A DNA stretch of 63,862 nucleotides, from the NCBI GenBank assembly GCA_029881435.1, contig JAOUMR010000008.1, forward strand, positions 1 through 63,862. The letters are read 5' to 3'. The position numbers were made by a program, and so were the translations under genes. The stretch is from Nitrospira sp. (lineage in GTDB: Bacteria; Nitrospirota; Nitrospiria; Nitrospirales; Nitrospiraceae). Position 1 is the stretch's first letter. Each line of letters begins with the position of its first letter. The notes under the pieces were generated by a model, which searched no databases, was not told the DNA's origin, and saw only the letters and a list, made by a program, of their open reading frames with translations. Shown piece after piece: positions 32,202 through 44,736 of this stretch.

Positions 32202-33974
32202 ATGTCTAGCGATTTCCGAAGCCCTTGTTCCGAGTCCTCACCTCCTGAAGGAGTCACGTCCGTTCAAGAAGACTGGACCCAGCTCCGCACGTTATTGTTG
32301 GCCCCCGAACAGACGCAGCTCGACGAAATCCGAGAACGGCTGGACAACCGAGTGGTTCAGTCAGAGGATGTCAGCCACGTGCTTCCCGAGGCCTTCGCGC
32401 TTCGCGGCGACAACGATCAACAGCTGTCGACGGTTCTGACTCCCTATGTGGAGAATGGTTTAGCGGCGTCTGTTCGGAAGTCGCCAAGGACGATCGTCGA
32501 TGCCATCGCTCCGATCATCGGGCCGGCCATTCGGCAGGCCATCGCCCGCGCCTTACAAAGCATGACGCAGTCCTTCAATCACTCGTTGGACGAAAGTGTG
32601 TCGATGCGAGGCCTGCGCTGGCGAGTGGAAGCCTGGAGAACGGGGAAACCCTTCGCAGAAGTCGTGCTGCTCCATCGGCTTCGGTATCGGGTTGAACAGG
32701 TATTTCTCATCCATCGCGAGACGGGACTCTTGTTGCAGCACGTGGCTACCGATGGAGCCGTGATCCAGGACCAGCATGTCCTATCCGGAATGCTGACGGC
32801 GATTCAAAATTATGTACAGGATTCGTTTGGTGGCAGGCAGGATCAGACGCTTGAGCAGTTCCAAGTCGGTGAATGGACAGTGTGGAGCGAACAAGGGTCA
32901 CAGGCCTACCTGGCCTGTGTCGTTCGCGGAACACCTCCCGCGAGTCTGAGAGATATCCTGTGCGACGCGCTGGATCACATCCATGCTCAGCACACCGATG
33001 CCTTGACCCATTTTGTTGGAGACGCAGCCCCGTTTACAACGACACAGCCCCACCTGGAGAGTTGCTTACAAGCCCATTATGACTCACCACCGAAACAGGG
33101 GTCGCTGAAACTGTGGATTCTCCTCGGCCTTCTTCTGCTGGGATCGGCCTGGTGGGGATGGATGACGTACCAGGCTCATGCCCGGTGGTCCAATCTTCTC
33201 GAGAGATTGAGGAACGAGCCGGGCCTCGTCGTCACCGAAGCGAAATCAGCGTGGGGAGGGTATCACCTCGAAGGGTTGCGAGACCCCTTGGCGAGAGATC
33301 CTACGGCGATGGTGGTCGAAGCCGGCCTTGAGCCCACGACGGTGAAGGCGATGTGGTCTCCTTATTATGCGCTGGATTCTCCGCTCGTCCTGGCTAGAGC
33401 GCAATCGATCTTGCAGCCCCCAACCACCGTGAAGCTGCACATCGAGGGAGAAACGCTGGTTGCGACTGGTTCCGCACCGGCTGACTGGGCCAGAGAGACC
33501 AAACGACTGGCGGTACTCGTTCCCGGGGTCTCCCAGTATCGCGACGACGGTCTCGTGACGACATCCATTCCGGTTCTCCTGGACCAGATCAACCGCACCA
33601 TCATTCACTTTCGCTCTGGTTCATCAACCGTCGAACCGGCAGAGCAGGCTGTACTCGATGCGGTTTCAACGACGCTACGAGAATTGGATCGGGCGGTGTT
33701 GCCCTCAGGCCAGCGCGTGGCGGTCGAAATACTGGGGTCAACCGATACGACCGGTTCAGTAGCACGCAATCTACAATTGAGCAAACAACGCGCGCAGGCT
33801 GTTCTCGCAATCCTCGGAGAGAAACGCCTCGGTGACGGCACAGCGCTGGTCACGGGCACTGTCCGGCTCTCTGACCAGCGTGAGGCAACGAGCGAAGCCG
33901 GTAGTCAGCGAATTGTGACCCTGCGGGCTTCTCTTACGGTTCCTGAGCAGATCCATGGGACGGCGCGTCCATGA
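32202..33974 (+). CDS. Membrane-anchored OmpA-domain protein of the GTPase cluster
   Basis: 590 residues in three parts: a cytoplasmic N-terminal part of about 300 residues ('LLLAPEQTQLDEIRERL', 'VLPEAFALR', 'GLRWRVEAWRTGKPFAEVVLLHRLRYRVEQVFLIHRETGLLLQHV'), one membrane helix ('LWILLGLLLLGSAWWGWMTY', about 305-325) and a periplasmic part ending in an OmpA-like peptidoglycan-binding domain ('IHFRSGSSTVEPA', 'GSTDTTGSVARNLQLSKQRAQAV'). I recall this conserved N-terminal form from predicted OmpA-family proteins in several phyla, function unknown. The next gene starts within its last four bases (ATGA), so its GTPase partner is coupled. Confidence 0.85.
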   Translation: MSSDFRSPCSESSPPEGVTSVQEDWTQLRTLLLAPEQTQLDEIRERLDNRVVQSEDVSHVLPEAFALRGDNDQQLSTVLTPYVENGLAASVRKSPRTIVDAIAPIIGPAIRQAIARALQSMTQSFNHSLDESVSMRGLRWRVEAWRTGKPFAEVVLLHRLRYRVEQVFLIHRETGLLLQHVATDGAVIQDQHVLSGMLTAIQNYVQDSFGGRQDQTLEQFQVGEWTVWSEQGSQAYLACVVRGTPPASLRDILCDALDHIHAQHTDALTHFVGDAAPFTTTQPHLESCLQAHYDSPPKQGSLKLWILLGLLLLGSAWWGWMTYQAHARWSNLLERLRNEPGLVVTEAKSAWGGYHLEGLRDPLARDPTAMVVEAGLEPTTVKAMWSPYYALDSPLVLARAQSILQPPTTVKLHIEGETLVATGSAPADWARETKRLAVLVPGVSQYRDDGLVTTSIPVLLDQINRTIIHFRSGSSTVEPAEQAVLDAVSTTLRELDRAVLPSGQRVAVEILGSTDTTGSVARNLQLSKQRAQAVLAILGEKRLGDGTALVTGTVRLSDQREATSEAGSQRIVTLRASLTVPEQIHGTARP

Positions 33975-34492
33975 TCCAGAAGAAAATCTGCATGCTGGGT
34001 GGATTCGCTGTGGGTAAGACTAGCCTCGTGCGGCGGTTCGTGAGTAACGTCTTTTCGGACCACTATCAGACGACGATCGGCGTGACCGTGGAAAAGAAAT
34101 CTGTCATGGCCGGTGAGCAGGGAGTTCTACTCATGTTGTGGGATCTGTACGGAGAGGACGAGTTCCAACATGTTCGGGAATCGTACCTGCGAGGCTCATC
34201 TGGTTACATCGTGGTGATGGATGGCACCAGGAGGGCCACACTGGAGACGGCACTCGCTCTGCAAGAGACCGCTGTCAAAACGATGGGTCCTGTCCCGTTT
34301 GTCTCGATTATCAACAAGGTGGATGTGCGATCTCAGTGGGAAATCGACGAGCGAGAGATTGAGCAGCTGCGAGCGCGAGGCTGGACCGTTCTGTTCGGCA
34401 GTGCCAAACTCGGGCAAGGAGTCGAGGAGCTATTCCTGAGCGTCGCGACTCAAATTATGCAGGCAGTACCTCTCTCCAGCGAACGCGCATGA
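33971..34492 (+). CDS. Rab/Ras-like small GTPase
   Basis: 173 residues. All five G motifs are present: P-loop 'GGFAVGKTS' (10-18), switch I 'YQTTIGV' (Thr35), G3 'WDLYGEDEF' (Asp58 to Gly61), G4 'NKVD' (115-118) and G5 'SAK' (144-146). The pattern is much closer to eukaryotic Rab/Ras than to bacterial translation GTPases. The catalytic Gln after G3 is replaced by Glu62, so intrinsic hydrolysis may be slow or need a partner. No C-terminal Cys for lipidation is seen. ATGA overlaps occur at both ends, with the OmpA gene before and the activator after, so three proteins are translated together. Confidence 0.92.
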   Translation: MIQKKICMLGGFAVGKTSLVRRFVSNVFSDHYQTTIGVTVEKKSVMAGEQGVLLMLWDLYGEDEFQHVRESYLRGSSGYIVVMDGTRRATLETALALQETAVKTMGPVPFVSIINKVDVRSQWEIDEREIEQLRARGWTVLFGSAKLGQGVEELFLSVATQIMQAVPLSSERA

Positions 34493-36291
34493 GACACCAG
34501 CCGCTTCACTCCGTTCCATCCGACGATCCACTGTTCAATCGCGTTCTCTCAACTCTCGATATTGCAGTCCTCGAGCGTGACGAACATTCCGGCGAGTTCC
34601 AGCTACAGGGGATGGCGCCGGAGTGGTGGCACATGCGCGTCGGTCCTGAATCATGCACGATGTTGGATCTTGCACAATGGTCGCCGTTTTTGCGGGAGTA
34701 TGTCGCTGCCGATCATCCCGCATGGACAGCTGAATCTGGTACGGTCGAGAAATCAGGCGCATGGACAGAATCCGATGGCCAGGGGGGTACCGTGACCCTG
34801 GAAGCGACAGTTCTATCAATGGAATCCCGAACGATCCTGCTTATTGAAAGGCTGGGATCCGGGTTTGAGCAGATGCGAGCCATCGTGCAACGCGCCCGTG
34901 AATGTATGCTCGCGGAAGACGTCACCGTGAAAGCTCATCACAAGACGGAGACGCGCCTGATCAACCAGCTCGAGGTCAGCGAGCGCACCAAAGACGGTGC
35001 ACTGGCGTTGCTTCAGTACCTCAGACTCGCCGCGCTCGTTCTCGATGAACATGGCCGCATCACATTTGCCAGCGATCGAGGGCTTGAACTGCTGGGTATC
35101 TCGACTCGAGAGGTCATCGGGCTGAAGTGGGAAGAGGTGTTTCCGATTCATCAGCAAGACCGAGTGATATTCCGCGAGATGATCAAGGCTCCCTCCGACA
35201 GGCGCACGGCTGGGCCGTTTTACATTAACAGTTCTCATCCGGCTTGGATTGAGCTGGACATTCATCGAGATCCACGGCACCCGGGTTGTCACATTTTGGT
35301 GATGAATGACCGCACAGAGCTCCACGCACTCCGTCGCGAGCTCAACGAGCAGGCATCGTTTCATGATCTCGTGGGGAAGAGTCCCGCGATGCTTCGAGTG
35401 TACCAACTGGTCCGAGACGTCGCATCCGTTGATACCACCGTGTTGATCGAAGGGGAGACGGGGACTGGAAAAGAATTGATCGCGCGAGCCATTCATTCCT
35501 CCAGCGGAAGACGGAATAAGCCCTTCATCGCCGCCAATTGTGCCGGACTCACCGATTCAATTCTAACGAGCCAACTCTTTGGCCACAGACGCGGAGCCTT
35601 TACCGGGGCGGTGAATGACCAGCAGGGACTCTTCGAGGCCGCGGAGGGCGGAACCTTATTTCTCGATGAAATCGGAGATATCCCGCCGCCGGTTCAGACG
35701 GCACTGTTGCGGGTTCTCCAGGAGAAGGAAATTACCCGGCTGGGAGAGAGTCGACCGCGCAAAGTGGATGTGCGCGTGCTGGCGGCCACGCATCACAACT
35801 TGAGTGAAGACGTCATTCGAGGCTCGTTTCGAGCTGATCTTTTGTATCGGATCCGCATTGCTAGAGTTCAGCTTCCCCCGCTGAGAGAGCGTCGCGAGGA
35901 TATCCCATTACTCGCACACTCCTTTCTCATGACGATCTGTGCTGCTTCCGGGAAGACCATCGACCCTCTCAGTCCGGAAACGCTCCATGGACTCATGAGC
36001 TATGTCTGGCCAGGAAACGTACGTGAACTGCGGAGCGCCATCGAATTTGCGGTGATCAGCTGCAGGAGGGCAGAGGTGTCCCTCAGCGATCTTCCACCGG
36101 AAATCGTAGGGACGCCGGGGGTGCCAACTCTGGCACCCTGGATTCCTTTGCAAGACCGAGATGAGAAATCCCGCCTGCTTGCCGCGCTCTCCGATGCCAA
36201 GGGCAATCGAACCGAGGCTGCGAAGCGACTGGGAGTCAGTAGGGCCACGTTCTATCGCCGACTGGTTGAACTCAATATTCAGCCTCGCTAG
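34489..36291 (+). CDS. PAS-containing sigma-54-dependent activator (EBP)
   Basis: 600 residues. An N-terminal region of about 170 residues of unknown fold, a PAS domain (about 180-290), then the AAA+ core with 'GETGTGKE' (about 323-330), the sigma-54-binding loop 'GAFTGA' (about 370-375), 'GGTLFLDEIGDI' and 'VWPGNVRELR', and a C-terminal Fis-type HTH ('RTEAAKRLGVSRATFYRRL'). It would bind enhancer sites and open sigma-54 promoters when its sensor domain is triggered. It starts in the ATGA overlap with the GTPase gene. The conserved operators just downstream (36408-36579) suggest autoregulation of the cluster. Confidence 0.92.
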   Translation: MRHQPLHSVPSDDPLFNRVLSTLDIAVLERDEHSGEFQLQGMAPEWWHMRVGPESCTMLDLAQWSPFLREYVAADHPAWTAESGTVEKSGAWTESDGQGGTVTLEATVLSMESRTILLIERLGSGFEQMRAIVQRARECMLAEDVTVKAHHKTETRLINQLEVSERTKDGALALLQYLRLAALVLDEHGRITFASDRGLELLGISTREVIGLKWEEVFPIHQQDRVIFREMIKAPSDRRTAGPFYINSSHPAWIELDIHRDPRHPGCHILVMNDRTELHALRRELNEQASFHDLVGKSPAMLRVYQLVRDVASVDTTVLIEGETGTGKELIARAIHSSSGRRNKPFIAANCAGLTDSILTSQLFGHRRGAFTGAVNDQQGLFEAAEGGTLFLDEIGDIPPPVQTALLRVLQEKEITRLGESRPRKVDVRVLAATHHNLSEDVIRGSFRADLLYRIRIARVQLPPLRERREDIPLLAHSFLMTICAASGKTIDPLSPETLHGLMSYVWPGNVRELRSAIEFAVISCRRAEVSLSDLPPEIVGTPGVPTLAPWIPLQDRDEKSRLLAALSDAKGNRTEAAKRLGVSRATFYRRLVELNIQPR

Positions 36292-36336
36292 CTGCATCTA
36301 CAGAATCAGTTTCATCCCTTCCCATCGATCGGTTTC

Positions 36337-36355
36337 GGAAGCGGTTTGCCGCTCC
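36337..36355 (+). terminator. Hairpin after the activator gene
   Basis: GGAAGCGG and CCGCTCC form a seven-pair stem with one bulged A and a TTTG loop, about 45 bases after the stop of the activator gene. A T/C-rich run follows 12 bases later, so it may be a weak terminator. The same hairpin is present in repeat copy B. Confidence 0.4.
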
Positions 36356-36407
36356 TGTTCACGCCGACCTTTCTTCTTGACCACACCGCATTTTCCAGTG
36401 CCGCAAG

Positions 36408-36465
36408 TGTCTCAGCCAAACCATTACCGGTCTCATGAGACATCCAGCTGTTTCAGGATGAGACA
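36408..36465 (+). promoter_or_regulatory. Palindromic operators upstream of the receiver gene (copy A)
   Basis: A half site TGTCTCA (36408-36414), a perfect 12-base palindrome GTCTCATGAGAC (36430-36441), and the inverted repeat TGTTTCA-gga-TGAGACA (36449-36465). The last two have centres 21.5 bases apart, two helical turns. Another TGAGACA lies at 36573-36579. These look like sites for the neighbouring HTH-8 activator. Confidence 0.6.
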
Positions 36466-36540
36466 ACTCGGATTAGTCCCGTCATTCCCAGTTTCGATAG
36501 AACGTATTGATTATCGAGGGAGTGGGACTCCTGGAGGATC

Positions 36541-36556
36541 AGGCATGAAGCTTGAT
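36541..36556 (+). promoter_or_regulatory. Possible sigma-54 (-24/-12) promoter, copy A
   Basis: AGGCATG-N4-TTGAT fits TGGCACG-N4-TTGCW except that the first base is A and the -12 GC reads GA. It is kept in the duplicate (CGGCATG-N4-TTGAT at 37448-37463). It lies about 80 bases after the operators and 100 bases before the receiver gene. Because the -12 GC is normally invariant, I rate it as tentative. Confidence 0.35.
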
Positions 36557-36657
36557 CTAACAAGAGGTCCGTTGAGACAAAATATGAATAGGACTGACTC
36601 CCAGAGGGCCAGCTCCGCTGCGGTCTGCATCCATGTAGTAACGGAAGGACTATCGTG

Positions 36658-37068
36658 ATGAACGTCTTGCTCGTTGAGGACCAGAAAGACACTCAGCGCC
36701 TCTTTGAGCAGATCCTCGTATCACATGGTCATACGGTTACGGCTTGTGTGGACGGGGAAACTGCCTGGACTGCCTACCAACGAGATCCTTATCCCCTTGT
36801 CCTGTTGGACTGGGAGTTGCCTGGTTTCACGATCGGTGGATTGCAACTCTGTCAGAAGATCAGGGCCCATGGGCGGGGGAGCCAGAGCATCATCGTGATG
36901 ACGACTGCCCACAATACGCCTGAGGATTTGGTGGCAGTGCTGAAGGCCGGAGCGAACGATTATCTGGCCAAACCCATCAGCCTGGATTTTCTCAAGATGC
37001 GGCTCTCGATCGCAGAGCAGTGGGCTATCGCCGAGTGCGTTGCCATGGACTTCGCTCCAGGACCATGA
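36658..37068 (+). CDS. Single-domain receiver (response regulator)
   Basis: 136 residues from the ATG at 36658, with GGAAGGA 10 bases upstream. A full receiver domain: 'LLVEDQ' acidic pocket, phosphoacceptor in 'VLLDWEL', 'VMTTAH' (Thr) and 'YLAKPIS' (Lys). No output domain follows in frame. However, the HTH tail of the activator continues out of frame just after (see 37046-37198); if joined, the protein would have the size of RegA/PrrA-type REC-HTH_8 regulators. It lies downstream of repeat copy A operators and the activator gene. Confidence 0.85.
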   Translation: MNVLLVEDQKDTQRLFEQILVSHGHTVTACVDGETAWTAYQRDPYPLVLLDWELPGFTIGGLQLCQKIRAHGRGSQSIIVMTTAHNTPEDLVAVLKAGANDYLAKPISLDFLKMRLSIAEQWAIAECVAMDFAPGP

Positions 37069-37198
37069 CGAGAAGTCCCGCTTGCTTGCCGCGCTCTCCG
37101 ATGCCAAAGGCAATCGAACCGAGGCTGCGAAGCGACGGGGAGTCAGTAGGGCCACGTTCTATCGCCGACTGGTTGAACTCAATATTCAGCCTCGCTAG
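37046..37198 (+). pseudogene. Out-of-frame duplicate of the activator's HTH tail
   Basis: In the frame one base off from the receiver gene, 'WTSLQDHDEKSRLLAALSDAKG' and 'NRTEAAKRRGVSRATFYRRLVELNIQPR' are read up to a TAG at 37196-37198. This is nearly identical to the end of the sigma-54 activator at 34489-36291. The only changes are the linker, R/H, and the helix residue L to R ('AKRRGVS'), which would hurt the HTH. It overlaps the last seven codons of the receiver gene. It has no start of its own, so it is a remnant of duplication. Confidence 0.85.
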
Positions 37199-37487
37199 CT
37201 GCATCTACAGAATCAGTTTCATCCCTTCCCATCGATCGGTTTCGGAAGCGGTTTGCCGCTCCTGTTCACGCCGACCTTTCTTCTTGACCACACCGCATTT
37301 TCCAGTGCCGCAAGTGTCTCAGCCAAACCACTACCGGTCTCATGAGACATCCTGTTGTCTCATGCTGAAACAACCATGGTCGGCTCCGTTATTCCCGGTT
37401 TCGATAGAACTCATTCATTGTCTAGGGATAGGGACTCTTGGCTGATCCGGCATGAAGTTTGATCTAACAAGAGGTCCGTTGAGACAC
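37047..37487 (+). repeat. Direct repeat copy B
   Basis: The second copy of 36140-36580 at an offset of 907 bases. It carries the broken HTH tail, the hairpin (37244-37262) and the operator region. The operators differ by compensating changes rather than being erased, so this copy may still regulate the following small-gene operon at 37552. Confidence 0.9.
37337..37373 (+). promoter_or_regulatory. Palindromic operators upstream of the 37552 operon (copy B)
   Basis: The perfect palindrome GTCTCATGAGAC is at 37337-37348 and TTGTCTCA-tgc-TGAAACAA at 37355-37373. Relative to copy A the arms are exchanged (TGTTTCA/TGAGACA became TGTCTCA/TGAAACA), which keeps the inverted repeat intact while the spacer changes. 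A TGAGACA half site is at 37480-37486. They lie about 200 bases before the next gene. Confidence 0.6.
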
Positions 37488-37551: not shown

Positions 37552-37869
37552 ATGACCACTTACGGGCTACTCGTCGAAGATCATCGGGGACAGAACTTCC
37601 TACTTACGACCGAGTCTTGTCCGAAGATGAAGACCCATCGGTTGGTCGTACTCCACCGAATCGACGACACATGGCAACCGGTGACGGGAATGCAGGCGCA
37701 AACCTGTCGAGAATCGGTTATCGGCGCATTCGTCGATTTCTTTGTAGACATTTGTAGGGTCCTGAACTCCACCGGGTCGGAATCGGAAATGGTTTCCGCG
37801 AGTACTCCGATGTCTCGCCGTTCTCGGATCAGGGCGTCATCTAAACCAAACCTTTGGACCATTCGATGA
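37552..37869 (+). CDS. Small protein of unknown function
   Basis: 105 residues. GAGAGGCG lies about ten bases before the ATG. The first 75 residues ('MTTYGLLVEDHRGQNFLLTTESCPKMKTHRLVVLHRIDDTWQPV') look like an ordinary small mixed alpha/beta domain, while the last 30 are Ser/Arg-rich and low in structure. I do not recognise a family. It is followed by a gene starting at the ATGA overlap at 37866, so it heads a three-gene operon with a zinc-binding protein and a LuxR-type regulator. Confidence 0.6.
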   Translation: MTTYGLLVEDHRGQNFLLTTESCPKMKTHRLVVLHRIDDTWQPVTGMQAQTCRESVIGAFVDFFVDICRVLNSTGSESEMVSASTPMSRRSRIRASSKPNLWTIR

Positions 37870-38246
37870 TTGAAATCGCGTATCAGGATCTTTGGCCAAT
37901 GGAATTGCTCGGGCACGTATCAGGCTCAGAGCCACACCCTCTTCTGGTATGTCAGTACTGCGGGTTTGTTCGGGACGATGAGCCGTGGCAACGTGACCGG
38001 CCGGCAGCTTGGATCGCGATGAAGGCGTATCGAAACAGAAGCGCAGTACGACTCAGGGACGTGCCATTCGTTCATACGTATTGTCCAAACTGCCTGCCGC
38101 GAATTCAGGCAAACAAATTAGGCCTCCGAGACCTGGCGACCACAGCAGCCGCGCATAAATCCATCAGGACGCCTTGGCGTGCGTGGATCGACAGGGGCTG
38201 GATCACCTTCATCAAAGGCATGGTCGAAAGGAAGAAACGCGGATGA
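37866..38246 (+). CDS. Small cysteine-paired (zinc-ribbon-like) protein
   Basis: 126 residues from the ATG at 37866 (ATGA overlap with the previous gene). Two CxxC pairs, 'CQYCG' and 'YCPNCL', are separated by about 50 residues, as in zinc ribbons. The end is basic ('MVERKKRG'). It overlaps the next gene by ATGA at 38243. Function unknown; a nucleic-acid or protein-binding adaptor is a guess. Confidence 0.65.
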   Translation: MIEIAYQDLWPMELLGHVSGSEPHPLLVCQYCGFVRDDEPWQRDRPAAWIAMKAYRNRSAVRLRDVPFVHTYCPNCLPRIQANKLGLRDLATTAAAHKSIRTPWRAWIDRGWITFIKGMVERKKRG

Positions 38247-38971
38247 ATAGGGATCTCTCACCTGGTTTCATGAGCGATGCCAGCACAGTAATCGCACCGC
38301 TTACCATCGCGTTTATTAGCAGGCAGTATGTCGTATGGCTCGGCTTGCAAAAGATTTTCGAGGGTAGAGAGGCCAGCCGGATCGTGGTGCAACTGTACCA
38401 GCAGCTGACACCTTGCGCGTTACTCCCCGAGAACCAACCCGATCTGTTCCTACTCGATCTGGGAACAGAACGAGATCCCATCGGGACTATCAGGAAGATT
38501 AGGGAGTCGGCCCCGAAGAGCAAGATCGTTGTGTTGAGCGGCCTCGAGGAGATGGACCTCACGCGCAAGACACTTGAATACGGCGTCGATGGCGTGATCC
38601 TGAATGTTCAACCCCCTGCAGTCGTGCTGGCTGCGATCGAGGCGCTGTATCACCCCCCTAATTACCCCGCTGCTGCGGAACGCAATGAAGCGGTGTATGT
38701 GGAGCTGAGTAAAGCCGTCAAGAAGAGGGCAGACTTCGAACCACAGCCACCGGTGTGGACCGACGTATTGACCGAGCGCGAACAAGAGGTTGCCAGAATG
38801 GTCGGTCAGGGACACTCAAACAAAGAGATCGCCTACCGGTTGTCTATTTCTGACAGTACGGTACGTCATCATCTGACTAACATTTTCGGCAAGATCGGAG
38901 TGCCCAATCGGCAGAAGCTTCTGTTGCAAACCCAGCATTTCCGGTTCCCCTCTGTCCAGCCGGACTCTTAA
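38243..38971 (+). CDS. LuxR/NarL-family regulator with degenerate receiver
   Basis: 242 residues from the ATG at 38243, with AAAGGAAG nine bases before it and an ATGA overlap with the gene before. The N-terminal domain follows the receiver pattern, with Asp72 in 'FLLDLGTERDP', but the acidic pair is gone ('TIAFISRQYVV') and the Lys is replaced by Asn ('GVDGVILNVQP'); normal Mg2+-dependent phosphorylation is unlikely. The C-terminal LuxR HTH is intact ('LTEREQEVARMVGQGHSNKEIAYRLSISDSTVRHHL'). It probably acts as a constitutive or ligand-tuned DNA-binding protein for this cluster. Confidence 0.85.
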   Translation: MNRDLSPGFMSDASTVIAPLTIAFISRQYVVWLGLQKIFEGREASRIVVQLYQQLTPCALLPENQPDLFLLDLGTERDPIGTIRKIRESAPKSKIVVLSGLEEMDLTRKTLEYGVDGVILNVQPPAVVLAAIEALYHPPNYPAAAERNEAVYVELSKAVKKRADFEPQPPVWTDVLTEREQEVARMVGQGHSNKEIAYRLSISDSTVRHHLTNIFGKIGVPNRQKLLLQTQHFRFPSVQPDS

Positions 38972-39680: not shown

Positions 39681-40385
39681 ATGAACATGTCGCAAATGAG
39701 GGATCATTGGGTGAATGAGTCAACAAGACAACAACATACTGTTCGTGTGTTACTGGTTGATGAGTCCATGCTAACCCTGCAAGGTCTCAAGACAATGCTT
39801 GCCAAGAGGAGTCACGTAGAAGTTGTCGGTATCGCCACCACATCCGGTGAGGTGCTCACAGCAATACAAACCCACCGACCCGATGTCGTCATCTTGGAGG
39901 TCCATGTGGGCCGAACGAGCGGCATCGATCTCTGCAAAATGATTCGGGAGACACATCCACGTATCGGCATTCTCTTTTTCACCTCCCATGACGATAAAGA
40001 TATGCTCCGTGCCGCAATTCTGGCGGGTGCGCAGGGATATCTATTGAAGACCGCCGCCGCTGATGCCGTCGCGAGGAGCATAGAGATCGTGGCCACTGGT
40101 CGGGCGATTATGGATCAGCAGCTGACTCAACAGGTCATCGCATGGGTAAGGGATAGAGGTCGGGTTGCGCAGGAGAGGGTCGAGGATAATGGTTCAAAAG
40201 AAGATCTTCGATTGTTGTCCTATATTGCGTGCGGCAAGACCAATAAGGAGATCGCCCAAGAGTTGAACGTCGCACCGACCGTGGTCGCGACTCGCCTACG
40301 GAAAATCTACAAGCACTTGAGAATATCTAGAAGATCCGAAGCGGCGCGTTACTATGTGCGCATCGAAGAAGGCCTGGATCCGTAG
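39681..40385 (+). CDS. LuxR/NarL-family regulator with Asp-to-Glu receiver
   Basis: 234 residues. AGGAC lies eight bases before the ATG. The receiver domain aligns well with NarL types, but the phosphoacceptor position is Glu73 ('PDVVILEVHVG'), which mimics a phosphorylated Asp and often gives a permanently active protein. The acidic pocket is 'VDES' and Lys in 'YLLKTA' and Thr/Ser in 'FFTSHDD' remain. The C-terminal HTH reads 'LLSYIACGKTNKEIAQELNVAPTVVATRLRKIYKHL', a LuxR fold. It closes the regulatory cluster. Confidence 0.88.
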   Translation: MNMSQMRDHWVNESTRQQHTVRVLLVDESMLTLQGLKTMLAKRSHVEVVGIATTSGEVLTAIQTHRPDVVILEVHVGRTSGIDLCKMIRETHPRIGILFFTSHDDKDMLRAAILAGAQGYLLKTAAADAVARSIEIVATGRAIMDQQLTQQVIAWVRDRGRVAQERVEDNGSKEDLRLLSYIACGKTNKEIAQELNVAPTVVATRLRKIYKHLRISRRSEAARYYVRIEEGLDP

Positions 40386-40731: not shown

Positions 40732-41418
40732 ATGAACCAGATATCCAACAGTACCGCTCGTACGGGTTCCTTCAGTTCCGAAACGCACCTCGGGGTGACC
40801 TGGGTCGCGATGGCAGGCATGGTTGCGCTGCTGATGCTGATAGGGACTCCCCTGGCGTCAGCTGAGCAGACTGCCACCGACTCGGTGAAACGCACGATCG
40901 ATGCGGTGCTCCATATTCTCACCAGTGACGAGCTGAAGCAGCCGGGCCGCTCGGTGGAGCGACGGCAGAAGATTGAGCACGTAATCCGGCAGCGCGTCAA
41001 CTATGAAGACATGGCCAAACAGGCCCTGGGCTGGCCCTGGATAGGACTGACTGAGACAGAGCGGCAGGAATTTGTGGCCCTCTTTGTTAAGTTACTTCGA
41101 GACACGTTTGCCGGTCGCATTGACAACTACGCCGACGAGCAGGTGCGCTATCTGTCTGAACAGCACGAAGAGAACTGTGCCGAGGTGAAAATGAAGCTGT
41201 CGGGCCCGAAAGTGGACACCCTGCTCGATTTTCGCGTCGTCGACCAGGACGGGGATTGGTATGTGTTCGACGTGGTCATCGACGGCGCGGGGATCGTGAG
41301 CAATTACCATGCGCAGTTCGCCAGCATTCTTCGCGATCATTCGTACGCGGATTTGGTGAACAAGATGAAAGAGAAGACCCTCGTGGTGAAAGCGTTTGAA
41401 ACGACCACGGCTCCATAG
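40732..41418 (+). CDS. MlaC/Ttg2D-like phospholipid-binding protein
   Basis: 228 residues. A long positively charged N-terminus, a hydrophobic core ('MAGMVALLMLIGTPLASA') and cleavage at 'ASA' show export to the periplasm. The mature region 'IDAVLHILTSDELKQPG...RRQKIEHVIRQRVNYEDMAKQALGWPWIGLTETERQEFVALFVKLLRDTFAGRID' is the MlaC/toluene-tolerance family pattern. MlaC shuttles phospholipids between outer and inner membrane. No other mla genes are adjacent. AAGGGG precedes the ATG. Confidence 0.85.
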   Translation: MNQISNSTARTGSFSSETHLGVTWVAMAGMVALLMLIGTPLASAEQTATDSVKRTIDAVLHILTSDELKQPGRSVERRQKIEHVIRQRVNYEDMAKQALGWPWIGLTETERQEFVALFVKLLRDTFAGRIDNYADEQVRYLSEQHEENCAEVKMKLSGPKVDTLLDFRVVDQDGDWYVFDVVIDGAGIVSNYHAQFASILRDHSYADLVNKMKEKTLVVKAFETTTAP

Positions 41419-41929: not shown

Positions 41930-43051
41930 ATGAAGGGTCTCATCGTCACAATTGCGTTGCTCACGGTTCTGCCTCTGACGACTACAGCGGTGAGCGCTGC
42001 GTTTCCCTCAGATGACTCGATTCCAATGCCACAAACTGCAGTTCCAGCGCAGGATGTCGTGACGTTGAAGGACGGCAGTGTCATTCATGGGGAAGTGATA
42101 GAGATGGTGGGTGGGGTGCTCCAGATGAAGAGCGCGCTAGCGGACGATCTGATTAAGATCAAGTGGTCTGAAGTGAGCAGGCTGGCAGTCTCTCATCCAA
42201 TTCCTTTCCACTTAAAGGAGGGAACCGTGCTTGTCGGCACAGCCGAAGAGGGTGAGCCTGGAACGATGAAGCTGAAAGCTGGGCCTACTGGAAGCACGAT
42301 GAGCGTGCCGATGGATGCGGTGACGAAGGTCAACCCTGTGGTCCAACCGCCGGTCATCTATAACGGTAGCTTGAACGCGGGCTACTCACAATCTACGGGC
42401 AACAGCCAACTCCGGAACGTCAGCATACTCGCAGACTTCGTGGCCCGGAGTGAGCAACTCCGACTGAGCTTGCTGGGGCGGTACGTCTACGGCGACAATG
42501 CCGGGAGCCTCAACGTTCGAAATGCCCGAGGAACGATCAAGTTGGACTTCTTTATCACCAAACGGCTGTACTGGTTTGCGTCGGCCTATGTCGAAAACGA
42601 TTTTCTCCAAAATCTGAAACTGAGAACGGCGATCGCCAGTGGACCGGGGTACCAATTCCTCGAGCGCGGAGACCTTGCCGGTATTTTTAAGGATATGACC
42701 TTTTACGCCGAAGGCGGTCCGGCCTATTTCAATGAGGACTACCGCGATAACAGCATCACCGGTGATAGGGCGAGTTTTCGCGCACGCGTCGCGATGAAAT
42801 GGGATTGGCCGCTGTGGGATGGGCGAGTGACGCTCTACCATTACAATGAGATTTTCCCCTCAGTCCAGAACGCGTCGGATTTCTTCTTTACGATGGATAA
42901 TGGGGTTCGCATGAAGATTTTGGCCGGTCTGGCGAGTGGGTTCCAGGTGACCACCCGTTACAACAATCGCCCGCCCGCCGGCACGGGTGACACCGACAAT
43001 TTATACTTGCTCACACTGGGGTATGCGTTCGACACCACCCGCAAGCGATAG
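41930..43051 (+). CDS. DUF481 outer-membrane barrel protein
   Basis: 373 residues. A signal peptide ('LIVTIALLTVLPLTTTAVSAA') is followed by an N-terminal beta-domain ('VVTLKDGSVIHGEVIEMVGGVLQMKS', an RNA-binding-Sm-like form seen in these proteins) and then the C-terminal DUF481 barrel: 'GSLNAGYSQSTGNSQLRNVSILADFVARS' and many alternating strands ending 'LTLGYAFDT'. The family has probable outer-membrane location. AAGGAGGAG before the ATG is strong. Confidence 0.82.
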   Translation: MKGLIVTIALLTVLPLTTTAVSAAFPSDDSIPMPQTAVPAQDVVTLKDGSVIHGEVIEMVGGVLQMKSALADDLIKIKWSEVSRLAVSHPIPFHLKEGTVLVGTAEEGEPGTMKLKAGPTGSTMSVPMDAVTKVNPVVQPPVIYNGSLNAGYSQSTGNSQLRNVSILADFVARSEQLRLSLLGRYVYGDNAGSLNVRNARGTIKLDFFITKRLYWFASAYVENDFLQNLKLRTAIASGPGYQFLERGDLAGIFKDMTFYAEGGPAYFNEDYRDNSITGDRASFRARVAMKWDWPLWDGRVTLYHYNEIFPSVQNASDFFFTMDNGVRMKILAGLASGFQVTTRYNNRPPAGTGDTDNLYLLTLGYAFDTTRKR

Positions 43052-43257: not shown

Positions 43258-43680
43258 ATGCTGAAAGAGTTCAAAGAATTCGCCATGAAGGGGAATGTCC
43301 TGGATATGGCGATCGGTGTCATCATCGGGGGGGCGTTTGGAAAGATCGTGTCGTCCCTCGTCAGTGACGTCCTGATGCCGCCGATTGGGTTGCTGATGGG
43401 CAAAGTGAATTTTTCCAGCTTGTTCATCGATTTGTCGAACACATCCCCCCAGTCTTTGGACGCAGCAAAAGCTGCAGGAGTGCCGACACTCAATTACGGA
43501 GTGTTTCTGCAAAGCGTGTTCGATTTTCTGATCATCGCGTTCGTCATCTTCATGTTGGTCAAGCAGGTGAACCGGTTTAAGAACGAGGCTGCTGCACCTC
43601 CACCCCCACCGCCACCAGGGCCGACGAATGAAGAGAAATTGTTGATGGAAATCCGCGATGCACTCAAGGGCCGTCCGTAA
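43258..43680 (+). CDS. mscL: Large-conductance mechanosensitive channel MscL
   Basis: 140 residues from the ATG at 43258, supported by AAGGAGGA. '[48 protein letters not shown]' is the MscL N-terminal helix and TM1, followed by a periplasmic loop, TM2 ('[23 protein letters not shown]') and a C-terminal helix. A run of seven prolines joins TM2 and that helix. The channel releases solutes in hypo-osmotic shock. Confidence 0.95.
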
Positions 43681-43752
43681 GGCGACGGCTCCAACCTGGG
43701 CTAGAACGTGGCGGGGCGTCTGCCACACACACGAGAGAAGAAGGAGATCATC

Positions 43753-44736
43753 ATGCGAACGTTCAAGACCTCGATGATGCTGATAGGAGTCGTCGCGCTG
43801 GCTGGTTGTTCATCGTTTAAAGACCATCCTTCTACCCATATCAAGCAGCCGACCGTCTGCGTCGACAAAGGATGGTACGGCTATTACCAAGGCAGCGGGT
43901 GCCCTTCTACGACGAAAACGGTGGCATCGGATGCCTCAGCTAACCGGCTTGCTGCCCTCGAAAGGGAGCGTCAACAGTTAGCTGATGAACTGGCAGCAGC
44001 GCGGAGACAAAACGGGGATCTGAGCAGCCGGGTCAGTGATTTAGAGCGACAGCTCGCTGAACGTGATCGTGAAATCGCGGCCCTTCGGTCCGGATCCGGA
44101 GCGAGCGCCGCCCTGGCAAGCCAACTTGCGGGGGCTCGGGGCGATCTGAGCCAGTCACAGAGCGAGAAAGATCGGCTGGCAGCAGAATTGGCTGCGGCGA
44201 ATCAGCGCAACGCTGATCTCGAAAGTCAATTGGCTGATCGTGACAAAGAACTCGCCGGTCTACGGGGTGACTTGTCTGCAGAAATGGCAAAGCTGAAAGA
44301 GGCAGAACGCGGATTGATCCGATCGCTAGGTCCTCAAATCAAGAAGGGTGATATTACCGTCAATTTAGACGACGAGCGACTTTTGATCAACTTGGCGTCC
44401 GGCTATCTCTTTGCGTCAGGTGAAGATGAACTCAAGCCTGCTGGTGCGGACGCCTTGAAACAGGTCGGCGGAATCTTGAAAGACTATCCAGAGTATAACG
44501 TCGCCGTTGATGGACATACCGATAACCAACCGATCCGCGGTGCGTTGAAGAACAAATTTCCAACGAATATGGAGCTGTCGGAAGCCCGTGCCGCTAACGC
44601 GGCAAGAGCGCTGGACGAAGGTGGGTTGAGCAACGCCACCACTCATGGATATGCAGATACCAAGCCTAAGGCGACAAATAAAACTGCGGCAGGCCGGGCA
44701 AAGAACCGCCGTGTGGAAGTCGTCGTCACGAAGTAA
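43753..44736 (+). CDS. OmpA-family lipoprotein with coiled coil
   Basis: 327 residues from the ATG at 43753. 'VVALAGCSS' is a lipobox (Cys19). From about 70 to 195 the sequence is coiled coil ('LAALERERQQLADELAAARRQNGDLSSRVSDLERQLAERDREI'). The C-terminal OmpA domain ('GYLFASGEDELKPAGADAL', 'VDGHTDNQPI', 'ELSEARAANAARAL') binds peptidoglycan. It probably spans between outer membrane and cell wall. AAGGAG precedes the start, and a strong hairpin follows the gene. It is downstream of mscL by about 72 bases. Confidence 0.88.
   Translation: MRTFKTSMMLIGVVALAGCSSFKDHPSTHIKQPTVCVDKGWYGYYQGSGCPSTTKTVASDASANRLAALERERQQLADELAAARRQNGDLSSRVSDLERQLAERDREIAALRSGSGASAALASQLAGARGDLSQSQSEKDRLAAELAAANQRNADLESQLADRDKELAGLRGDLSAEMAKLKEAERGLIRSLGPQIKKGDITVNLDDERLLINLASGYLFASGEDELKPAGADALKQVGGILKDYPEYNVAVDGHTDNQPIRGALKNKFPTNMELSEARAANAARALDEGGLSNATTHGYADTKPKATNKTAAGRAKNRRVEVVVTK

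Follow-up and report, generated by a model that had tools for sequence, protein, structure and literature searches.

Mirror-image sites behind a sigma-54 activator gene in Nitrospira: a candidate enhancer array of a proposed, conserved cell-envelope switch

Introduction

What binds the mirror-image sites that recur in two copies of a repeat just behind a sigma-54 activator gene in Nitrospira sp.? The question is raised by positions 36408-37486 of a 63,862-nucleotide stretch (contig JAOUMR010000008.1; "the window" hereafter means the whole of this stretch), where an initial annotation had noticed paired symmetric sites. Combining the layout of these sites with a comparison of related genomes, we propose that they are candidate docking sites, most likely of the adjacent activator, EBP1, and that array and activator form a switch, conserved within Nitrospira and the family around it, which probably turns on cell-envelope genes. 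We found no description of the Nitrospira EBP1 array system in the open-licence literature. For these hard-to-culture nitrifiers, the comparison yields specific predictions of a regulator, its operator and promoter and a set of targets, and it points to a natural activator pair on which the influence of a single recognition-helix residue on the specificity of sigma-54 enhancers can be studied.

Layout of the array

Starting ~120 bp past the EBP1 stop codon, the array consists of a half-site (U) and two palindromes (C and D) followed by a -24/-12-like element (Table 1), and the whole U-C-D-promoter set of copy A recurs 907 bp on as copy B. Site C is the same palindrome, GTCTCATGAGAC, in both copies, just as the initial annotation had stated, and the centres of C and D lie 21.5 bp apart in each, which at 2.05 turns agrees with the two helical turns it had given. 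Identity between the copies amounts to 7/7 bases in U, 12/12 in C, 12/14 in the arms of D and 1/3 in its spacer, 55/75 in the stretch from D to the promoter and 13/15 in the promoter itself; in the non-coding tract from the stop codon to U (36292-36407 versus 37199-37314), all 116 of 116 bases agree. If only the two copies are considered, D is not significantly conserved (12/14 arm bases against a background of 55/75; binomial P ~0.24, calculated by hand). An extra TGAGACA stands beyond each promoter, at 36573-36579 and 37480-37486, where 25/26 bases are conserved between the copies.

Such clustering goes beyond chance. At least four TGTCTCA/TGAGACA half-sites within 180 bp were found in 0/200 dinucleotide shuffles of the window, and each real copy has four. 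The genome (3.72 Mb) has three places with the exact motif TGTYTCA-N3-TGARACA, of which these copies account for two, and none with its backwards control. With three mismatches allowed, the window has six matches versus 8.2 expected from shuffles, and because such matches are no commoner than in shuffled sequence, only the exact copies carry weight. Coordinates, genome count and shuffles thus confirm the symmetric paired sites in both copies.

The -24/-12-like element, GGCATGAAG[C/T]TTGA, begins exactly 111 bp after the start of C in both copies, with the GG of -24 and the G of -12 placed 10 bp apart (GGCATGAAGCTTGA / GGCATGAAGTTTGA), so that inverted-repeat sites stand ~100 bp upstream of the promoter, an arrangement conserved in orthologs. 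The -12 dinucleotide of the window elements is GA, not GC, as it is in 38/66 tallied elements; TTGC at -12 occurs in 0/66, and the TTGA of the window counts against a sigma-54 promoter reading. A TTGATTA-like stretch, seen by eye in part of the loci, was noted in connection with a possible IHF site between UAS and promoter.

The activator gene next to the array encodes a protein with Pfam matches to Sigma54_activat (2.1e-66, residues 294-460), HTH_8 (5.3e-10, residues 559-592) and PAS_4 (9.5e-06), and GAFTGA is present in its translation. The Pfam search gave no Response_reg match in EBP1, that is, no N-terminal receiver of the NtrC type. Among solved structures, the EBP1 HTH is best matched by ZraR (1ojl), and sigma-54 (rpoN) is encoded in the same genome (PF04552 1.3e-57, contig C121).

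Table 1. Positions of the array elements and of the surrounding genes in the window
Feature	Positions	Strand	Remarks
590-aa protein, C-terminal OmpA domain	32202-33974	+	PF00691 1.3e-08; upstream, same cluster, synteny
Ras-like small GTPase	33971-34492	+	Overlaps EBP1 start; PF00071 4.2e-29; synteny
EBP1, sigma-54 activator (PAS-like, AAA+, HTH_8)	34489-36291	+	Recognition helix SRATFYRRL; proposed binder
Half-site U, copy A	36408-36414	+	TGTCTCA; 21 bp upstream of C left arm, a spacing shared by most orthologs
Site C, copy A	36430-36441	.	Palindrome GTCTCATGAGAC
Site D, copy A	36449-36465	.	TGTTTCAggaTGAGACA = TGTTTCA-gga-TGAGACA
-24/-12-like promoter A	36541-36555	+	AGGCATGAAGCTTGA; 111 bp from C start
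Stand-alone receiver domain	36655-37068	+	Response_reg 5.7e-24; ~60% identical to EBP2 receiver in related genera; probable EBP2 remnant
HTH_8 C-terminus relic, frame-shifted	37061-37198	+	Copy of EBP1 3' end; out of frame with receiver ORF
Half-site U, copy B	37315-37321	+	TGTCTCA; U to C 21 bp, as in copy A
Site C, copy B	37337-37348	.	Palindrome GTCTCATGAGAC
Site D, copy B	37356-37372	.	TGTCTCAtgcTGAAACA = TGTCTCA-tgc-TGAAACA
-24/-12-like promoter B	37448-37462	+	CGGCATGAAGTTTGA; 111 bp from C start; identical to G059 element
First ORF after promoter B (ORF37552)	37552-37869	+	No Pfam match; homologs behind same array in relatives
LuxR-type regulator	38243-38971	+	GerE 8.7e-19; ORF listed from 38174, read from 38243
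LuxR-type response regulator	39681-40385	+	Usual early gene of downstream cluster in relatives
MlaC-like phospholipid transport protein	40732-41418	+	PF05494 9.8e-39
DUF481 outer-membrane-type protein	41930-43051	+	PF04338 6e-38; conserved downstream
MscL mechanosensitive channel	43258-43680	+	PF01741 3.6e-47; conserved downstream; ORF listed from 43213, read from 43258
OmpA-family protein	43708-44736	+	PF00691 9e-16; conserved downstream

Conservation among orthologs

A protein search of 79 genus genomes returned 28 EBP1 loci at 68-100% identity (window included) and 8 at 52-54%. The U-C-D array lies just behind the EBP1 gene in 25 of the 28, with U altered or absent in a few of these (L010, L017 and L030, by eye), and mean column conservation over 24 anchored loci is 0.98 for C and 0.77 for U, compared with 0.44 for neighbouring columns. 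A -24/-12 element follows 109-113 bp after C in 23 of the 25 array-bearing loci; of the two missed by the promoter pattern, one has an altered C (L020) and the other an element that deviates from the pattern (L031). The sequence TGTCTCATGAGAC occurs at 25 places in the 79 genomes and its backwards pattern at one, and 21 of the 25 places directly follow an EBP1 gene or, in the case of copy B, the probable remnant of a second activator, EBP2. The remaining four are in G012, G066, G077 and, as one of its places, G073: the place in G066 resembles an array remnant without an EBP1 match, which counts against the proposed switch, and the other three show no array.

In the wider family, the genes of activators at 47-55% identity are still followed by TGTCTCA half-sites and by promoters of the GGCAY type, and three loci of group g9 carry array palindromes of exact TGTCTCA-N3-TGAGACA form. 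Over all 64 orthologs, GGCAY-N5-TTG[CAT] stands within 80-300 bp of the stop codon in 55. Other findings speak against the proposed switch. In G060, G025 and G061 (3/28 genus loci), a different array further down replaces U-C-D, and the spacing of the palindromes is unlike, being 0 in C and 2-3 in D, which a single dimer would need to tolerate. In G060 and G025, EBP1 is followed by a further HTH_8 end (SRTTLWRRL, with LASDQ as its last residues) and by another array, of GTCTCA-like sites (among L014, L019, L027, L122 and L123), while LASDQ closes EBP1 of G061, as though the protein had been fused to this further HTH_8 end.

Recognition helix and half-site

Counting half-sites in the 300 bp behind each gene, we compared the 64 orthologs (28 + 8 + 3 + 25) with 23 paralogs from groups g18 and g14. 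The helix reads SRAT in all 64 orthologs, which are followed by 134 TGTCTCA versus 10 TGTGTCA half-sites, and SRRT in all 23 paralogs, followed by 7 versus 28. Shuffles lead one to expect ~5 of either half-site for the orthologs (all groups added up) and, for the paralogs, 1.2 TGTCTCA and 1.35 TGTGTCA; within the ortholog genes themselves, the final 300 coding bases contain no TGTCTCA and a single TGTGTCA. The association of helix and half-site has a Fisher p of 4.7e-18, a value that overstates the case because it reflects one evolutionary event. Counting against it, the 7 TGTCTCA half-sites kept by the paralogs exceed the 1.2 in shuffles. At least two GTGTCA halves occur in only 10 of the 23 paralogs and at least two GTCTCA halves in only 16 of the 25 g18/g14 orthologs, and in two g19 genomes (L140 and L141), a receiver-type activator with an SRAT helix sits directly before mscL without any array.

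By residue numbering, the A/R position of the EBP1 helix aligns with S423 of LuxO, which the LuxO study (PMC11407668) places among the critical residues, its change to alanine having led to loss of activity. Taken together, the joint difference in helix and half-site favours EBP1 as the binder, as strong circumstantial evidence and not proof, because it is one change on the tree. The initial annotation had named the HTH_8 activator as the likely binder, and the comparison supports this choice well through the array behind the orthologous gene, the -24/-12 element at a fixed distance and the paralog that differs in both helix and half-site.

Extent of the regulon

The same annotation had suggested searching the genome for TGTYTCA-N3-TGARACA upstream of -24/-12 promoters, and this exact motif does not single out the EBP1 regulon. 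Across 147 family genomes, it occurs at 40 places in 32 genomes (backwards, 0), and only 4 of the 40 lie beside EBP1 (two in G000, the genome of the window, and those in G136 and G158); a flank in G146 resembles that of G158 but has no EBP1 match at the cut-off used. No matching -24/-12 element was found within 250 bp of those exact-motif sites that came with a locus, a subset of the 40, the elements of g9 lying outside the pattern used. In the window's own genome, neither the third exact match (C108) nor the one further place given by a looser pattern (C119) has a -24/-12 element within 250 bp, and the exact motif was rejected as a marker of a genome-wide regulon. Because few exact motifs adjoin EBP1 and the sites that came with a locus have no matching -24/-12 element, the EBP1 regulon looks local.

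The 40 places divide into 23 of the form TGTTTCA-N3-TGAAACA, 6 of the form TGTCTCA-N3-TGAGACA and 11 mixed. The first form, often as TGTTTCATNATGAAACA, turns up repeatedly in many Nitrospira genomes at places not covered by a long open frame, and some of these places have flanks that resemble one another (L003 at 139-155; L185, L188, L191, L195, L203-L205 and L207); it is probably the operator of another regulator.

Origin of copy B

Copy B lies behind the probable remnant of a second activator and is therefore not a plain tandem duplication. EBP2 is a receiver-AAA+-HTH_8 activator of 454-478 aa present in g18, g14 and g19. At E <= 1e-30, the receiver seen in the window is found only in G000 and G061 among the 79 genus genomes, with the stop codon at the same place in both, and the HTH piece differs between the two by 4 non-synonymous and 0 synonymous codons, as expected of a relic. 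From C to the promoter, copy A is nearer G059 (82/111, ungapped) and copy B nearer G074 (70/111), which suggests a recombined history. We infer that EBP2 once stood here and was later stripped of its AAA+ part, the repeats becoming alike through recombination with the 3' end of EBP1. A single 907 bp tandem duplication was rejected, as the unit holds the receiver domain of another activator family; it is also disfavoured by the occurrence of the receiver in 2/79 genus genomes and by the different ages of the two halves. The step from the fully identical 116 bases to 73% identity between D and the promoter would suit a tract of recombination or gene conversion with its end near C.

Neighbouring genes and likely targets

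Past the array, relatives have a gene for a LuxR-type regulator, often a homolog of ORF37552, and then DUF481, MscL and OmpA genes; ahead of the activator they encode a coiled-coil protein, a protein with an OmpA domain and a Ras-like GTPase. The likely targets are the regulators and, after them, the DUF481, MscL and OmpA envelope genes, and the downstream cluster would form one operon under promoter B. A general association of sigma-54 with the cell exterior has been argued for (PMC3162934). The OmpA-domain protein and the Ras-like GTPase (32202-34492), conserved beside the activator, may provide a signal input.

Proposed switch and alternative readings

From sequence comparison, we consider it highly probable that each repeat copy is an enhancer and promoter module of a sigma-54 switch under EBP1. 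EBP1 dimers would bind the TGTCTCA/TGAGACA array, with its half-site U, palindrome C and weaker, degenerate palindrome D set ~two helical turns apart; looping of the DNA would then bring the AAA+ ring into contact with the sigma-54 form of RNA polymerase at the -24/-12 element, which begins 84 bp away from the D centre and 111 bp away from the C start. The receiver-domain ORF at 36655 would be served by copy A, and copy B would serve ORF37552 and the genes behind it, coding for LuxR-type regulators, MlaC, DUF481, MscL and OmpA. Copy B would originally have stood behind EBP2, of which only a receiver and an HTH fragment in a shifted frame would have survived, and recombination between the 3' ends of the two activators would have left little difference in the left portion of the repeat. 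The switch may have an envelope or osmotic role. A wider proposal, which we put forward tentatively and regard as possible yet doubtful, is a dedicated envelope/turgor switch of Nitrospira and relatives, in which the OmpA-domain protein and the Ras-like GTPase signal to EBP1, EBP1 acts on its own downstream array to turn on the DUF481-MscL-OmpA cluster, and the duplicated EBP2 has been insulated by a single helix change from A to R matched by the change of TGTCTCA to TGTGTCA.

One of the LuxR-type response regulators encoded downstream (38243 or 39681) could bind the sites instead, as feedback control, given that in relatives the early genes past the array usually include one for a LuxR-type regulator. 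We hold this to be quite improbable: the half-site stays TGTCTCA in distant loci where the matched LuxR-type protein drops to 31-35% identity, the paralogous activator has a TGTGTCA array of its own, and a place behind the activator gene, ~110 bp from a -24/-12 element, fits the activator. Much the least probable is a non-regulatory repeat, either a recombination scar or the end of a mobile element, with palindromes incidental to the duplication. The copies are indeed repeated DNA, identical from stop codon to U, and the HTH relic looks decayed, but genomes that lack the repeat have the array as a single copy after the EBP1 gene, and C is far better conserved than the columns around it; conservation among orthologs mostly refutes this reading.

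A narrower alternative concerns only the arms of D and is compatible with the enhancer role. The initial annotation had described these arms as exchanged, TGTTTCA-n3-TGAGACA in copy A against TGTCTCA-n3-TGAAACA in copy B, which is literally true, and had taken the symmetry kept despite changed bases as a mark of selection, which does not hold. The exchanged position is not itself symmetric in either copy of D. Among the 25 orthologs, half-site position 4 of D is degenerate (left T11 A9 C3 G2; right, reverse-complemented, C10 G9 T6) and symmetric in just 3, whereas no ortholog deviates at position 5 or 6 of either arm. The spacer measures 3 in 16 orthologs and 2 in the other 9. The exchange thus falls at a freely varying position, and arm exchange alone was rejected as proof of selection. 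A micro-inversion of 17-21 bp in one copy would also yield the exchange, with D of copy B differing from the reverse complement of A at 2/21 positions and from A directly at 5/21. A near-palindrome, however, resembles its own reverse complement regardless of inversion, and the A-type D is also seen, except for its first base, in G059. Since the spacers GGA and TGC and both arm types each occur separately in other orthologs, and G061 has the B type in its two copies along the entire D-to-promoter stretch, allelic divergence is enough to account for the exchange, and we regard the inversion as improbable.

Relation to known systems

Operators of GlrR/QseF read TGTC-N10-GACA; the Nitrospira sites share the TGTC...GACA dyad but space it by 6 (C) or 9 (D). 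With LuxO at the Vibrio qrr genes, as described in PMC11407668, EBP1 has in common an HTH_8-type domain, equivalent recognition-helix positions and two sites ~100 bp upstream of a sigma-54 promoter; LuxO, unlike EBP1, is a two-component regulator of small RNAs, whereas EBP1 has a PAS-like region and no receiver. In Desulfovibrio vulgaris, 10 of 13 one-component activator genes are co-localised with sigma-54 promoters, one of these promoters lying downstream of its gene, according to PMC4641369. The modules described there resemble the Nitrospira array in having sites at least ~100 bp upstream of a -24/-12 promoter by the activator gene, and they differ from it in half-site and targets; relative to that account, the Nitrospira array is distinguished by its conserved place right behind the activator stop codon across Nitrospira and related genera of the family.
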